Assembly: GCA_027066325.1 (NCBI GenBank)
Contig: JAMONY010000011.1
Span: 1-55,383, forward strand
Reading direction: 5' to 3'
Length of the DNA: 55,383 nucleotides
Source of the DNA: Helicobacteraceae bacterium
Lineage (GTDB): Bacteria; Campylobacterota; Campylobacteria; Campylobacterales; Sulfurimonadaceae
The position numbers and the translations under genes were made by a program. The notes below the pieces were generated by a model. It saw nothing but the letters and a program-made list of their open reading frames with translations, was not told where the DNA came from and ran no database searches. The number at the start of each line of letters is the position of its first letter. Position 1 is the first letter of the stretch. This document shows, piece by piece, positions 41,673 through 48,433 of this stretch.

Positions 41673-42599
41673 ATGAAGAGAGTTGTAGGTAGTGTGATCA
41701 TATTAATAGTGAGCAGCATGCTTTTTACGGTAGATCTAAGTGCAGCAGTTGGTGATTGCATTAAGGGTCAGTACAATGTGTACAATGAAGAGTGCAAACA
41801 ATCAGAGTTAGATTCAGATCAATGTACAACAAGAACTGAGCAGACGCCAGAGGCTAGGTGGTGCTGTTGTGATTGTGAGTATGAGTTGTCAAAATGTGGA
41901 AAACTGTTCGATAGTATTTTTACAGGTAGTAAAAAATCTAATGTTTCTAAAATGATGGACACTACTCGTAAGTTTAGAGACAACTCTTTAAAACAGAGCA
42001 AGCTCTGGAGTAGGTATATAGATCTTTACTACAAAAAAACTGAAACTCTCACAAATATTATGTTAAAAAATCCAAAGCTGGCTAAACATACAGCTATTGT
42101 CCTAAAAGATAATCTTAAACTTATGAGGACTCTATCTAGCGGCAAGAGGGCAAAGGTTAAAGCAGAACATATGTTTGAAGTTTTGCGTCTACTAAAAGAG
42201 TACGCTAGTGTAGATATGAAAGATAAAGAGATGGCAAAGTTTGCTCATCAGTTATCTGCTCATCTTATGGATTCAAAATGGCTAGATAGTCTTGGTATAA
42301 CTGTTGTTGGAGATTATGTAAGTGAGGGGCGTAATACAGATAGCGGAGGAAAAGGTGATGATGGTAAAGATAAAGATCCAGATGGCGATCCTGCTACTTG
42401 TGATAAACCAGTTTCGCCAGGTATGTGTCCACGCCAACCACTAGATCCAAATAAGTCAGACAATAAAGGTTGTCCAGAAGGGTGCAATAAGGTAAATGCT
42501 ACTCAGTGCAGTTGTCCTCGCACAGGTCCAGACAAGGATCCTTCAAGGATAGGTAGTGCTTTTGATCAACTATGTAATTTGGCTGGTGTATGTTGGTAG
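41673..42599 (+). CDS. Hypothetical secreted cysteine-rich protein
   Basis: Signal peptide; cysteine clusters at both ends (ARWCCCDCEYELSKCG; CPEGCNKVNATQCSCP...CNLAGVCW) around a helical middle. Confidence 0.65.
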   Translation: MKRVVGSVIILIVSSMLFTVDLSAAVGDCIKGQYNVYNEECKQSELDSDQCTTRTEQTPEARWCCCDCEYELSKCGKLFDSIFTGSKKSNVSKMMDTTRKFRDNSLKQSKLWSRYIDLYYKKTETLTNIMLKNPKLAKHTAIVLKDNLKLMRTLSSGKRAKVKAEHMFEVLRLLKEYASVDMKDKEMAKFAHQLSAHLMDSKWLDSLGITVVGDYVSEGRNTDSGGKGDDGKDKDPDGDPATCDKPVSPGMCPRQPLDPNKSDNKGCPEGCNKVNATQCSCPRTGPDKDPSRIGSAFDQLCNLAGVCW

Positions 42600-43217: not shown

Positions 43218-44231
43218 ATGAAGATAGTTACACTTTCAGTCATAGCATCAGTTGCACTTAGTGCATCAGGATTAGTACAAGTAGCAGATAAGGCAGGTTT
43301 AAAAAGCATACCAGAGTCTACCTTGGAGTTACTAAAGCTTACAGATAATCCAAAAAATCCGATTACAGAGTCTAAAGTTGAGCTTGGCAAAAAGCTATAT
43401 TTTGATCCACGACTCTCAAAAAGTGGACTTATATCATGTAATACATGTCACAATCTAGCAGAGGGTGGTGATGATGGGGTGAGCGCTGCCATAGGTCATG
43501 CTTGGAGAGCAAATCCACACCATCTAAACTCACCAACTGTATATAATGCAGTATTTTTTGACTCACAGTTTTGGGATGGTAGAGATCCAGATCTAGAAAA
43601 GCAGGCACAAGGACCAATCTTGGCAGCTCCAGAGATGGCAGCTAGCAAAGAACATGTAGTCTCCACTGTGCTCTCTATGCCAGCTTATGTTGATGAGTTT
43701 AAAGAGGCATATGGCGATAGTGTTCAGATAGATTATGAGACTATAACTGCTACTATTGCAACTTTTGAGCGTACTCTTGTAACTCCATCAAGATTTGATG
43801 ACTTTTTAAATGGTAAACATAATGCTATAGATAAAGAGGAGAAGAGAGGTCTTGAGATCTTTATAGATAGAGGTTGTGCAAGCTGCCACAATGGTATAGC
43901 ACTTGGCGGATCTATGAGTGCATTTGAGGTTGCCAATAAGTATAAGTATGCTTCTTTAGGAGACTTTAGCGGAGATAAGAACTCTCAAGTTAAGGTACCA
44001 ACCCTTAGAAATCTAAGCGCAACAGCTCCATATTTTCATAACGGAGCTATCTGGAGTCTTGATGAGGCTATCGTTGAGATGGGAAGAGTTCAGCTTGGTT
44101 TAGATCTAAATAGAACAGATGTGGATTCAATCAAGAAATTTTTAGGTACATTAGATGGCAGGGTGCCTCAAGTGATCTATCCAATACTGCCAGCATCTAC
44201 AGAGTCTACTCCAAGACCAGATGCAAATTAA
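43218..44231 (+). CDS. Di-heme cytochrome c peroxidase
   Basis: CNTCHNLAEGGDDG and CASCHNGIALGG heme motifs; KVPTLRNLSATAPYFHNGAI. Confidence 0.93.
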   Translation: MKIVTLSVIASVALSASGLVQVADKAGLKSIPESTLELLKLTDNPKNPITESKVELGKKLYFDPRLSKSGLISCNTCHNLAEGGDDGVSAAIGHAWRANPHHLNSPTVYNAVFFDSQFWDGRDPDLEKQAQGPILAAPEMAASKEHVVSTVLSMPAYVDEFKEAYGDSVQIDYETITATIATFERTLVTPSRFDDFLNGKHNAIDKEEKRGLEIFIDRGCASCHNGIALGGSMSAFEVANKYKYASLGDFSGDKNSQVKVPTLRNLSATAPYFHNGAIWSLDEAIVEMGRVQLGLDLNRTDVDSIKKFLGTLDGRVPQVIYPILPASTESTPRPDAN

Positions 44232-44351: not shown

Positions 44352-45914
44352 ATGAAAACAAGATACAGAGTCGGTCTATCGCTTATCGCGATAGCACTGT
44401 TAACTGGAGGGTGTTCGCAACAACAAGCAGCAACGCCAGTAGTATCAGAGAGTAGTAGTGTAAAAAGTAGTGTTGTTGATGATGGCTCTGCTGATAAGAT
44501 CAAAGCACTAGAAGCTGAGTTAGCAAAAAGCAAAAAAGCTTTGGCTGAAGCTAAAACGGCATCTTCTTCTACACCTGTAGAGACCAAGAGAGATGTTAGT
44601 AGTGATATAGATCTACCACCTGCAAAACCTGGTCAATGTTTCACAAAAGCATTTTTTCCACCAAAGTATAAGACTACAACTGAGAAAGTTTTAGCAACTG
44701 AAGCTAGTGAGAAAATTGAGGTTATTCCTGCAACTTACAAAACAGTGAAAGAGAAAGTTCTTGTAGGTGAAGCTAGTGAGCGCGTTGAGATTCTGCCTGC
44801 TGTTTATGGTACACAGACAGAGACTATTGAGGTTAGCCCTGAAGAGTTGATCTGGAGAGTTGCTAAAGATAGCAAATCTGCAAGAGCTTCTCAGGTAGTT
44901 CTAGATGCTGCAAAAAAAGGTGGTATTGATCTAGCATCTGCAAAAGTTGGTAGCTGTTACCATGAGCATTATCTAGCTCCTAAATACAAAACTGTAACAG
45001 AGAAGATGCTTGCATCTGAAGCTAGCGAAAAGCTAGAAGTTATACCTGCTAAGTATGAGTTAGTAAATGAGAAGGTGTTAGTATCTGAAGCTAGTACACG
45101 ACTTGAGACTATCCCAGCTAAGTATAAAACTGTAAGTGAAAAAGTTCAAATTGAGCCTGCAAAACAGATCTGGAAAAAGACTCCTTGTCTAGATGAAGGG
45201 TGTGATAATCAAGAGATTTTATGTCTAGTTGATGTACCTGCTAAGTATAGAACTGTTACAAAAACTGTACTTGTAGAGCCGGCAAAAACAAAAACTGTTC
45301 AGATTCCAGCCAAATACAAAACTGTTAAAGTTAACAAGTTGGTCTCTCCAGCTACAACAAGAGCTATACCTATTCCTGAAACATACAAAAGTGTAACACA
45401 CACTGAAAAAGTATCAGATGGTGAGTACATTTGGCATCCAGTTAATGAGAACAATCCATTAACTCCTCCAAGTACAAGAACTGGTAATGTTATCTGTCTA
45501 ACTAAAACACCTGCTAAGTATAAAAAAGTTAGCAAAACTGTTGTTAAGACACCGGCATCATCTAAGACTATTACTATCCCTGCAAAATATAAAACTGTAG
45601 AGGTTGTGAAGTTAGATAAGCCAGCACAAGAGAAGAGAATTCCTATTCCAGCAACTTATAAAACTGTTACAAAAACAGAGCTTATAGCTGATGGATATAC
45701 AAAATGGGTTCCTATAGTATGTAAGTCAAATATGACTACTACAACTATCAAGAATGTGCAAAAAGCACTAAAAGATGTAGGTTTTTACAAAGGTCCAATT
45801 GATGGCATCTGGGGATCACAATCTAGAGCTGCTGTTAAAGCGTATCAAAAATCTAAAAACCTTCCACTCTCTGGTTTGAGCGTTGAAGTTATGGAGAAAT
45901 TAGGTCTATATTAG
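44352..45914 (+). CDS. Repeat-containing lipoprotein with C-terminal peptidoglycan-binding (PG_binding_1) domain
   Basis: Lipobox LLTGGC; ~12 copies of a ~23-aa PAxYKTVxxKVL... unit; C-terminal IKNVQKALKDVGFYKGPIDGIWGSQSRAAVKAYQKSKNLP. Confidence 0.85.
   Translation: MKTRYRVGLSLIAIALLTGGCSQQQAATPVVSESSSVKSSVVDDGSADKIKALEAELAKSKKALAEAKTASSSTPVETKRDVSSDIDLPPAKPGQCFTKAFFPPKYKTTTEKVLATEASEKIEVIPATYKTVKEKVLVGEASERVEILPAVYGTQTETIEVSPEELIWRVAKDSKSARASQVVLDAAKKGGIDLASAKVGSCYHEHYLAPKYKTVTEKMLASEASEKLEVIPAKYELVNEKVLVSEASTRLETIPAKYKTVSEKVQIEPAKQIWKKTPCLDEGCDNQEILCLVDVPAKYRTVTKTVLVEPAKTKTVQIPAKYKTVKVNKLVSPATTRAIPIPETYKSVTHTEKVSDGEYIWHPVNENNPLTPPSTRTGNVICLTKTPAKYKKVSKTVVKTPASSKTITIPAKYKTVEVVKLDKPAQEKRIPIPATYKTVTKTELIADGYTKWVPIVCKSNMTTTTIKNVQKALKDVGFYKGPIDGIWGSQSRAAVKAYQKSKNLPLSGLSVEVMEKLGLY
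44658..45722 (+). repeat. Coding tandem repeat: 12 units in 4 triads
   Basis: Units such as PATYKTVKEKVLVGEASERVEIL, PAKYELVNEKVLVSEASTRLETI, PAKYKTVEVVKLDKPAQEKRIPI; each third unit ends IWR/IWK/IWH/KWV. Confidence 0.85.
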
Positions 45915-45933: not shown

Positions 45934-45958
45934 AACCCCCTTTCTATCTGGGGGTTTG
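45934..45958 (+). terminator. Hairpin terminator candidate after the repeat lipoprotein gene
   Basis: AACCCCC (45934-45940), 9-nt loop, GGGGGTT (45950-45956); short T tail. Confidence 0.6.
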
Positions 45959-45966
45959 ATACTATT

Positions 45967-46704
45967 ATGACTAAAACTATAATTAGCATGGTTTTTGTGA
46001 TAGTAGCTCTAAGCTCAACACTCTGTGCAACTGAAAAGATTAAGATAGCTGTTGCGAGTAACTTCTATACAACTATGAAAAAGATAGCATTAAAGTTTGA
46101 GACTATTTACCCCTATAAGATCATACTTATCTCAGGCGCAACAGGTCAGCAGTATGCTCAGATAGTACATGGTGCGCCATATGATCTCTTTTTTGCAGCA
46201 GATTCAAAGCGTCCAGAACTATTAGAAGAGAGCGGTACTGGAGTAGATGGTAGCCGTTTTACCTACGCTATTGGCGCCCTTGTGCTCTGGAGTAGTGAGT
46301 CAGATCTTATAGATGCCAACGCTACTATACTTAAGCGTTTGAACTTCTCTAGATTGGCCATAGCCAACCCTAAAGTAGCACCATATGCACAGGCTAGCTT
46401 GCAGACACTGAAGGCTCTAAATATTTTCACATCAGCTTCAAGTAAAATTGTTTATGCGCAGAGTGTTGCTCAAGCACTTATGTTTGCTCAAACGCAAAAT
46501 GCTCAACTAGCTTTTATATCATACGCGCAGCTAAAATCTCTCAATCAAGGTTCGTATTATATTGTTCCGCAAACACTTTATGACCCAATCATTCAGCAGG
46601 CAATAGTACTCAAAAAGAGTAGAGCAACAGAGCAATTTTTACGCTTTTTTAGAAGCAGAGAGGTTGGACAGATAATCAAACACTCGGGATATACACTGCC
46701 GTGA
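45967..46704 (+). CDS. modA: Molybdate ABC transporter substrate-binding protein
   Basis: KIAVASNFYTTMKKIALKFE, ISGATGQQYAQIVHGAPYDLFFAAD; followed by modBC. Confidence 0.9.
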   Translation: MTKTIISMVFVIVALSSTLCATEKIKIAVASNFYTTMKKIALKFETIYPYKIILISGATGQQYAQIVHGAPYDLFFAADSKRPELLEESGTGVDGSRFTYAIGALVLWSSESDLIDANATILKRLNFSRLAIANPKVAPYAQASLQTLKALNIFTSASSKIVYAQSVAQALMFAQTQNAQLAFISYAQLKSLNQGSYYIVPQTLYDPIIQQAIVLKKSRATEQFLRFFRSREVGQIIKHSGYTLP

Positions 46705-47384
46705 TACTAGATGCTTCAGACTTAAATGCACTATTTATAACCTTTAAGCTAGCCTTTATAACAACTACTATACTGCTTGTGCTTGGCACCCCTTTGGCTT
46801 GGTGGCTCTCAAGAACATCTTGTAGATACAAGTTTCTCATAGAGGCGGTAGTAGCTCTACCACTTGTACTGCCTCCAACAGTCATAGGTTTTTATCTACT
46901 TATAGCACTAGGTGAGGGTGGAGTCATAGGCTCATTGAGTCAATTTCTAGGTTTAGGATCTCTAGCATTTACATTTACAGGCTTGGTTATAGGTTCGGTA
47001 TTTTACTCCTTACCTTTTGTAGTGCAACCTCTGCAGTCTGCTTTTGTCTTTATAGACCAGAAGATACTTGATGCTGCATCAACACTAAGAGCATCTAAGT
47101 ATGATCAATTTTTAACCATTATATTTCCACTTGCTAAACCAGGTTTCTTAACGGCTGCCATTTTAGGTTTTGCTCATACACTTGGTGAGTTTGGCGTGGT
47201 GTTGATGATAGGTGGAAATATAGCGGGTGAAACTCAAGTTGCATCAGTAGCCATATATGAACATGTAGAGTCTTTGCAGTATGCTCAAGCTCACACACTA
47301 TCGCTCATACTACTGCTCTTCTCATTTGTCACATTGGCACTTATATATGCTTTTAATCGTCGCTTTATGGTCGGTAAGATATGA
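46701..47384 (+). CDS. modB: Molybdate ABC transporter permease (GTG start)
   Basis: LPLVLPPTVIGFYLL, FAHTLGEFGVVLMIGGNIAGETQVASVAIYEHV. Confidence 0.93.
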   Translation: MILDASDLNALFITFKLAFITTTILLVLGTPLAWWLSRTSCRYKFLIEAVVALPLVLPPTVIGFYLLIALGEGGVIGSLSQFLGLGSLAFTFTGLVIGSVFYSLPFVVQPLQSAFVFIDQKILDAASTLRASKYDQFLTIIFPLAKPGFLTAAILGFAHTLGEFGVVLMIGGNIAGETQVASVAIYEHVESLQYAQAHTLSLILLLFSFVTLALIYAFNRRFMVGKI

Positions 47385-48433
47385 GCATCTGTATCAAGCT
47401 AGCGCTTAGTAAAAAGAGTCTAAATTTAGATGTAGATATAGATATCAAAGATAGCTTAGTGAGTGCTATTTTAGGTGAGTCAGGATCAGGTAAGACAACT
47501 CTGCTTAGAGTAGTAGCTGGTATTGAGAGAGTTGATGATGCCACGCTATATGTTGATGCTCAGTGTTGGCAAGATGATAAAACATTTTTGGCACCACATA
47601 GACGCCCAGTTGGGTATGTATTTCAAGACTCAATGCTCTTTGAACATCTAAGTGTAGGGCAAAATATAGAGTATGCACTTAAGCGTGTAGGTACTGCAAA
47701 GAGATATATTGATATTGATGAGATGCTACAGATTTTAAAGATAGATCACCTCTTGCAACGCAGACCTCACACGCTCTCAGGTGGCGAAAAACAGCGTGTA
47801 GCCATAGCGCGCGCACTTGCTACAAATCCACAGATACTACTTTTAGATGAGCCCTTGTCAGCTCTTAATGTAGAGCTAAAAGATCAAACCTTAAACTATC
47901 TAAGCTATATTTGCAATACATTTGGTATTCAGATGCTCTATGTTACACACTCTTTTCGAGAGGCTGCAGCCATCGCAGAGCAGGTGTTGTATCTACAAAA
48001 TGGTAGAGTCAATTTGGCTAAAGATCTTAATGCTTTATCTATAGATCTCTCAAAAGTAAAAGCTCAAGAACACTTTAGCATCATTCCTACCAAATTAAAG
48101 AGTGAGCTTAGAGAACATGGGTTGTGTGAGCTAGAGTTTGATGGCGGTATTTTTACTGTAGACAACCATTTAGCTCACAACAGAGTTAACCTGCTTATAA
48201 GAGCGGAAGATGTCAGCATATCTCTTGAGCATCCGCTACATACAAGTGTATTAAATATCTTTAAAGTAGTGGTTATAAAGATAGAGTCAAATGGATCTAG
48301 AGCACTTATCCAGCTCCAGATTAACAAAACCATACTACTCTCATCTATTACAACGCTTTCACTGCAGAGGCTATCTCTAAGAGAAGATATGGAGGTTTTT
48401 ATAGAGATAAAAGCACTATCTATCTCAACTTAA
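47381..48433 (+). CDS. modC: Molybdate ABC transporter ATP-binding protein
   Basis: Walker A GESGSGKTTLLR, signature LSGGEKQRVAIARAL, Walker B ILLLDEPLSAL; C-terminal TOBE-like region. Confidence 0.93.
   Translation: MSICIKLALSKKSLNLDVDIDIKDSLVSAILGESGSGKTTLLRVVAGIERVDDATLYVDAQCWQDDKTFLAPHRRPVGYVFQDSMLFEHLSVGQNIEYALKRVGTAKRYIDIDEMLQILKIDHLLQRRPHTLSGGEKQRVAIARALATNPQILLLDEPLSALNVELKDQTLNYLSYICNTFGIQMLYVTHSFREAAAIAEQVLYLQNGRVNLAKDLNALSIDLSKVKAQEHFSIIPTKLKSELREHGLCELEFDGGIFTVDNHLAHNRVNLLIRAEDVSISLEHPLHTSVLNIFKVVVIKIESNGSRALIQLQINKTILLSSITTLSLQRLSLREDMEVFIEIKALSIST

Follow-up and report, generated by a model that had tools for sequence, protein, structure and literature searches.

A putative cell-wall-binding envelope protein of Campylobacterota with two repeat arms of matched unit count and a possible paired beta rod

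The repeat gene and its surroundings

The window, by which we mean the whole stretch of 55,383 nucleotides that was analysed (contig JAMONY010000011.1 of a Helicobacteraceae bacterium), carries a gene for a 520-residue repeat protein, present as one copy in its own genome. The first-pass annotation had read in it twelve repeat units, grouped into four triads that each start after a Cys and end on a Trp, followed by a closing Cys and a PG_binding_1 domain, and this repeat architecture was confirmed. Blocks 1 and 2 are referred to below as arm a, and blocks 3 and 4 as arm b. The features are:

44352..45914, + strand: gene of the 520-residue two-arm repeat protein (open reading frame, ATG to TAG)
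44352..44414, + strand: signal peptide with lipobox-like LLTGGC and candidate lipid-acceptor Cys21, then Ser (from sequence; the N-terminus resembles those of two-arm lipoproteins)
44484..44555, + strand: predicted helix, residues 45-68, a coiled-coil-like spacer (AF2 secondary structure, pLDDT 45-64)
44637..44855, + strand: arm a, block 1, Cys96 to Trp168, three units
44856..44954, + strand: mid-arm-a junction linker, residues 169-201
44955..45173, + strand: arm a, block 2, Cys202 to Trp274, three units
45174..45221, + strand: inter-arm linker, residues 275-290, with Cys279 and Cys284 (alignment places it at the arm linker of two-arm relatives)
45222..45434, + strand: arm b, block 3, Cys291 to Trp361, three units
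45435..45494, + strand: mid-arm-b junction linker, residues 362-381
45495..45722, + strand: arm b, block 4, Cys382 to Trp452, and closing Cys457 (W-x4-C)
45744..45875, + strand: PG_binding_1 domain, residues 465-508 (Pfam PF01471)

Residues 465-508 passed the gathering score of PF01471 (42.3 bits against a cut-off of 23), and a fold search of the AF2 model against the PDB matched this domain to the SleB N-domain 6tci with a probability of 1.00. A Pfam search gave no match to the OmpA domain (PF00691) in the protein. The N-terminal KTRYRVGLSLIAIALLTGGC21-S matches a loose lipobox pattern, with Thr and not Leu at position -3, and is similar to the N-termini of two-arm lipoproteins by blastp (E 3e-10, indicative only, as the low-complexity and composition filters were off). 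The C-terminus reads ...MEKLGLY and is without a C-terminal Lys for covalent linkage to peptidoglycan.

Directly 3' of the repeat gene lie modA-modB-modC-like molybdate ABC transporter genes (45967-48433), of which modA was identified by library search and modB and modC were read from sequence alone. Between the repeat gene and modA there is a 7-bp inverted repeat, AACCCCC-N9-GGGGGTT (45934-45956), possibly a terminator. The upstream gene at 43218-44231 encodes a protein of the di-haem CCP/MauG type, which matches TIGR03981, the MauG model of the His-Xaa-Ser system, below the threshold; this and the likewise sub-threshold match of the repeat protein to HxsA through its peptidoglycan-binding domain are probably a coincidence. 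A Cys-rich exported open reading frame of 308 residues at 41673-42599 has only a sub-threshold CFI-box-CTERM match. Rfam gave no match within the window or in nine loci.

Repeat units, arm counts and relatives

Self-comparison of the protein has its maximum at a lag of 23 residues, where the mean BLOSUM62 score is 0.69 compared with -0.26 for the best of 500 shuffles, and secondary peaks at lags of 106 (triad 1 to 2), 91 (triad 3 to 4) and 193. The twelve 23-residue units start at residues 103, 126, 149, 209, 232, 255, 296, 319, 342, 387, 410 and 433. Each triad has a Trp at the end of its third unit (Trp 168, 274, 361 and 452) and a Cys before its start (Cys 96, 202, 291 and 382), Cys457 closes the last triad, and the further pair Cys279 and Cys284 sits between triads 2 and 3. 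Three-unit periodicity, which had been set beforehand as the test that could overturn the grouping, is present: identity between units of different triads is 45% when they hold the same place and 36% when they do not, and the observed unit order was the best among 216 orderings. The 23-residue periodicity is thus far above chance and the grouping in threes is real. The likeness of triads 1 and 2 and of triads 3 and 4, which the first-pass annotation had also noticed, amounts to 58% identity within each pair and 35-43% in every other pair, and duplications respect the triads. Because arm a can be told from arm b in every member, this likeness reads, from the sequences, as a three-unit block that was duplicated inside each arm, in step.

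Loss of the Cys and Trp positions in relatives, the other outcome named beforehand as a refutation, was not seen: all five block Cys and four Trp are invariant in 21 aligned four-block relatives, and the five block Cys in all 96 four-block proteins. Arm a can be written as Cys-(23 aa)n-Trp and arm b as Cys-(23 aa)n-Trp-x4-Cys; from Cys to Trp, arm a has 23n+3 residues (one residue longer in four) and arm b 23n+1, followed by x4 and Cys. The closing Cys lies at W+5 in 75/75 fully parsed four-block and 61/62 two-arm relatives. The window protein, with 3+3/3+3 units and Trp452 followed by Cys457, falls within the two-arm family as defined here.

Repeat proteins usually vary their repeat number freely. 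The survey of repeat number proposed together with the first reading found that counts do vary among relatives, and that the count of arm a equals that of arm b in 157 of the 158 non-redundant proteins, across seven states with 2 to 7 units per arm. The non-redundant two-arm proteins comprise 4/4 (43 proteins), 6/6 (9), 5/5 (6), 7/7, 3/3 and 2/2 (one each) and a single 4/6, and all 96 proteins with four blocks have 3+3/3+3 units, both of their arms being divided behind the third unit. In 21 of these 96, the parser missed or mis-sized one block owing to extra or oddly placed Cys, and their four-triad form was assigned after examples had been read and on the strength of the alignment, where none of the 96 lacks any of the five block Cys. 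Four more 4/4 proteins are missing from the final parse (three were counted as 4/4 in another count), and two divergent ones were uncountable. The 5/5 proteins encoded by tandem copies in Sulfurovum (L033, L141 and L142) have no mid-arm split in either arm. Across relatives the basic unit is therefore an arm of n units that has a counterpart of the same n, and not the triad, which had been taken for it.

The sole unequal protein (L010, 4/6) comes from a fragmented genome that is 81% complete. In its sister L009, arm a contains an exact repeat of 122 bp, and collapse of the assembly is a possible source of the 4/6 count. A tree built on the non-repeat parts (linkers and peptidoglycan-binding domain) plus the units at the arm ends needs about 11 changes of count, and only one state is unequal. 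Eight of nine representative states are matched, an outcome that shuffled pairing reached in 22 of 400,000 trials. Any one DNA event can affect just one of the two arms; that the counts have become equal again and again suggests selection.

The gene has no relative in the seven other genomes of its genus and is present in 7/151 genomes of its family. A scan of named genomes gave 14 loci labelled Sulfurovum or Campylobacteraceae, with best-segment identity of 48-56%, and a survey of the phylum gave matches in 28/397 genomes, some to the peptidoglycan-binding domain only; in family f9, matches were found in 22/22 genomes. Two f9 proteins (L234 and L235, from G571 and G572) are strongly diverged and keep the Cys pattern with the PAxYKTV consensus lost. 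The survey beyond Campylobacterota covered plasmids, phages and viral contigs. Among plasmids there was one true relative, an unannotated open reading frame of Methylobacterium bullatum (L067:3902-4432) with 2/2 arms and a Gly/Tyr/Pro-rich tail, and the wider two-arm family, otherwise found within Campylobacterota, therefore exists in Alphaproteobacteria. The phage search gave matches of the peptidoglycan-binding-domain type only, and two alignments against viral contigs gave no relatives.

By the same loose rule, a lipobox is present in 10/96 four-block relatives compared with 59/62 two-arm relatives. The lipid anchor is thus not a fixed part of the architecture, contrary to the first reading, and most four-block relatives do without a lipid. 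Two relatives (L054, a 4/4 protein of 282 residues, and L055) end directly after the closing Cys and have no peptidoglycan-binding domain, so their arms act without it. Neighbourhoods differ from family to family, and no conserved operon partner was found in them. In several relatives of family f7 an OmpA-domain gene adjoins the two-arm gene, which fits a role in the envelope and is not a conserved partnership.

In Sulfurovum, some loci have tandem gene copies (L033, L035 and L036), and the two copies in L035 are 100% identical over 1,488 bp. At nearly all Sulfurovum loci (L025-L038) the contig reaches only about 150-450 bp beyond the first gene copy on its upstream side. Tandem copies were considered as the cause of these contig ends and dropped, since at loci with a single copy the gene finds no match in the upstream sequence; the contig-end sequence is not rRNA and matched no Rfam family.

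Arrangement of the arms

Several features bear on how the two arms lie relative to each other. The linker from the last Trp of arm a to the first Cys of arm b has 18 residues at n = 3, 6 and 7, 16-18 at n = 5 and 15-28 at n = 4. Extra Cys in the mid-arm junctions (residues 169-208 in arm a, and the corresponding junction in arm b) occur in both arms in 27 of the 96 four-block proteins, in neither arm in 69, and in one arm alone in none. Two placements occur. In one, an extra Cys about 15 residues into linker 1 goes with one that precedes the block-4 Cys by 4 residues; in the other, a Cys that follows the block-2 Cys by 4 residues goes with one that follows the block-3 Trp by 7. The two arms switch together from one placement to the other. 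On the tree this pattern amounts to 2-3 evolutionary events, and the linked junction Cys, as read from the sequences, are supportive of side-by-side arms, not conclusive. Cys in the inter-arm linker are either absent or two in number, and a single one never occurs. In 134/137 proteins, arm b is the more basic of the two arms.

Structure prediction, also proposed with the first reading, gave a divided answer. AF2 placed alternating strands of 12 and 7 residues throughout the whole protein with low confidence (pLDDT 67.8, pTM 0.33), whereas one isolated block, modelled from a 78-row alignment and likewise at low confidence, had almost no strands and no fold. The block alignment mixes arm-a and arm-b blocks, which may account for this failure. 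As support for paired arms, the presence of predicted strands in the whole chain but not in the single block is weak. The coevolution signal (mean-field DCA on 96 sequences, about 43 effective) was dominated by ancestry.

From these data we infer the pairing of the arms, their orientation, the disulfide partners, the membrane and the function. It is about an even chance that the protein is an exported envelope protein whose two equal arms of beta units lie side by side, most likely antiparallel, in one rod. Units 1-6 (arm a) and units 7-12 (arm b), all of 23 residues and beta-forming, would pair lengthwise, the number of units would set the length of the rod, and in the version found in the window protein each arm would be split at its middle. 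In the antiparallel case, the rod would probably be fastened by disulfides, Cys96-Cys457 at its base, Cys202-Cys382 half-way along and Cys279/284/291 at its tip. The antiparallel orientation is favoured by the constant linker and by the second Cys placement, at the start of block 2 and the end of block 3. Against this reading, the tip Cys of two-arm relatives is without a partner within the chain if the arms are antiparallel.

The C-terminal PG_binding_1 domain would hold peptidoglycan, and a lipid on Cys21, together with the short helix, would hold the membrane. This is probably the outer membrane because Ser follows the lipid Cys; under the Lol rule, Ser at that position directs a lipoprotein to the outer membrane. 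If the arms are antiparallel, lipid and peptidoglycan-binding domain leave the rod at the same end, and the distance of the tether would then be set by the short helix and the linkers. The base would then tether membrane to wall while the rod projects away, for example to brace the periplasm or to hold a partner. Tethering cannot be the universal role, since the lipid and the peptidoglycan-binding parts are each missing in some relatives.

The first-pass annotation had proposed an extended strut between membrane and wall, with the repeats as one rod running from the lipid anchor to the peptidoglycan-binding domain and each triad as a separate module. The lipobox-like N-terminus and C-terminal peptidoglycan-binding domain of the window protein and the regular predicted strands agree with it, but it gives no reason for equal halves, for a constant inter-arm linker or for matched mid-arm Cys, a lipobox is absent from most four-block relatives, and an isolated triad is not predicted to fold. 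We regard this end-to-end arrangement as disfavoured and quite unlikely; anchors at the same end would contradict it if the arms are antiparallel, and it would survive if the arms are parallel. The remaining part of that proposal, a modular envelope protein that is probably disulfide-linked and putatively binds peptidoglycan, is supported.

In a parallel rod, for example of two beta-solenoids, the linker would run back along the rod, Cys96 would pair with Cys291 and the anchors would lie at opposite ends. Equal counts and matched mid-arm Cys are explained equally well by such an arrangement. A linker that stays at 18 residues from n = 3 to n = 7 fits it less easily unless the rise per unit is small, and in one of the Cys classes the two positions, at the beginning of block 2 and at the end of block 3, are neighbours only if the arms are antiparallel, so that a parallel rod appears rather unlikely. 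It is also conceivable that the repeats form a flexible, partly disordered spacer without pairing, the equal counts being inherited or a by-product of repeat mutation. Low AF2 confidence and the ease with which repeat arrays change in number, as in the 122-bp repeat of L009, speak for such a spacer, yet the arms remained matched through the changes of count on the tree, matched change needs selection when each DNA event alters one arm, and the Cys and Trp at the arm ends are invariant. We consider an unpaired spacer distinctly improbable.

We give slightly less than an even chance to a further proposal, an unnamed repeat fold in which the two arms of a chain need equal numbers of 23-residue units and zip up alongside each other. 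The product would be a beta rod stapled by disulfides, lengthening or shortening in matched steps during evolution (2/2 to 7/7, and 3+3/3+3) and carried by an envelope protein that binds the cell wall.

Comparison with known systems

No Pfam, NCBIfam or PDB sequence family among the libraries searched covers the 23-residue repeat arms, although members are widespread in Campylobacterota, and no paper found in the open-access literature mentions the repeat motifs. The whole-protein model had no PDB match with E < 0.001, and among the top matches only the peptidoglycan-binding domain was matched at high probability. The protein thus appears to be a peptidoglycan-binding envelope protein whose repeat domain seems undescribed in the libraries and open-access papers searched. 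Two arrays in one chain that change in step would be direct evolutionary evidence of long-range pairing that structure prediction missed, and the family may serve as a simple test system for the folding of paired beta arms and for length tuning of envelope proteins.

The window protein resembles PG_binding_1 proteins such as SleB, whose N-terminal domain (6tci, 4fet) is matched by residues 465-508 in sequence and fold, but it is without a catalytic domain and its repeat arms have no counterpart there. HxsA (TIGR03979) matches in the region of the peptidoglycan-binding domain only (36.4 bits against a cut-off of 121.65), and the window protein is without His-Xaa-Ser repeats. OmpA/Pal-type peptidoglycan-binding envelope proteins (PF00691) likely belong to the same role class, and they differ in the OmpA domain, which the window protein does not have. 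The nearest system in the way it works is Braun lipoprotein Lpp, and this comparison of mode of action implies no membership. Lpp is a small helical protein that is covalently attached, whereas the window protein has predicted beta repeats and a separate non-catalytic peptidoglycan-binding domain. The likeness lies in the task: as two papers describe it, Lpp is a lipoprotein that links membrane and wall and whose size bears on envelope spacing and the width of the periplasm (PMC8824477, PMC5736177).
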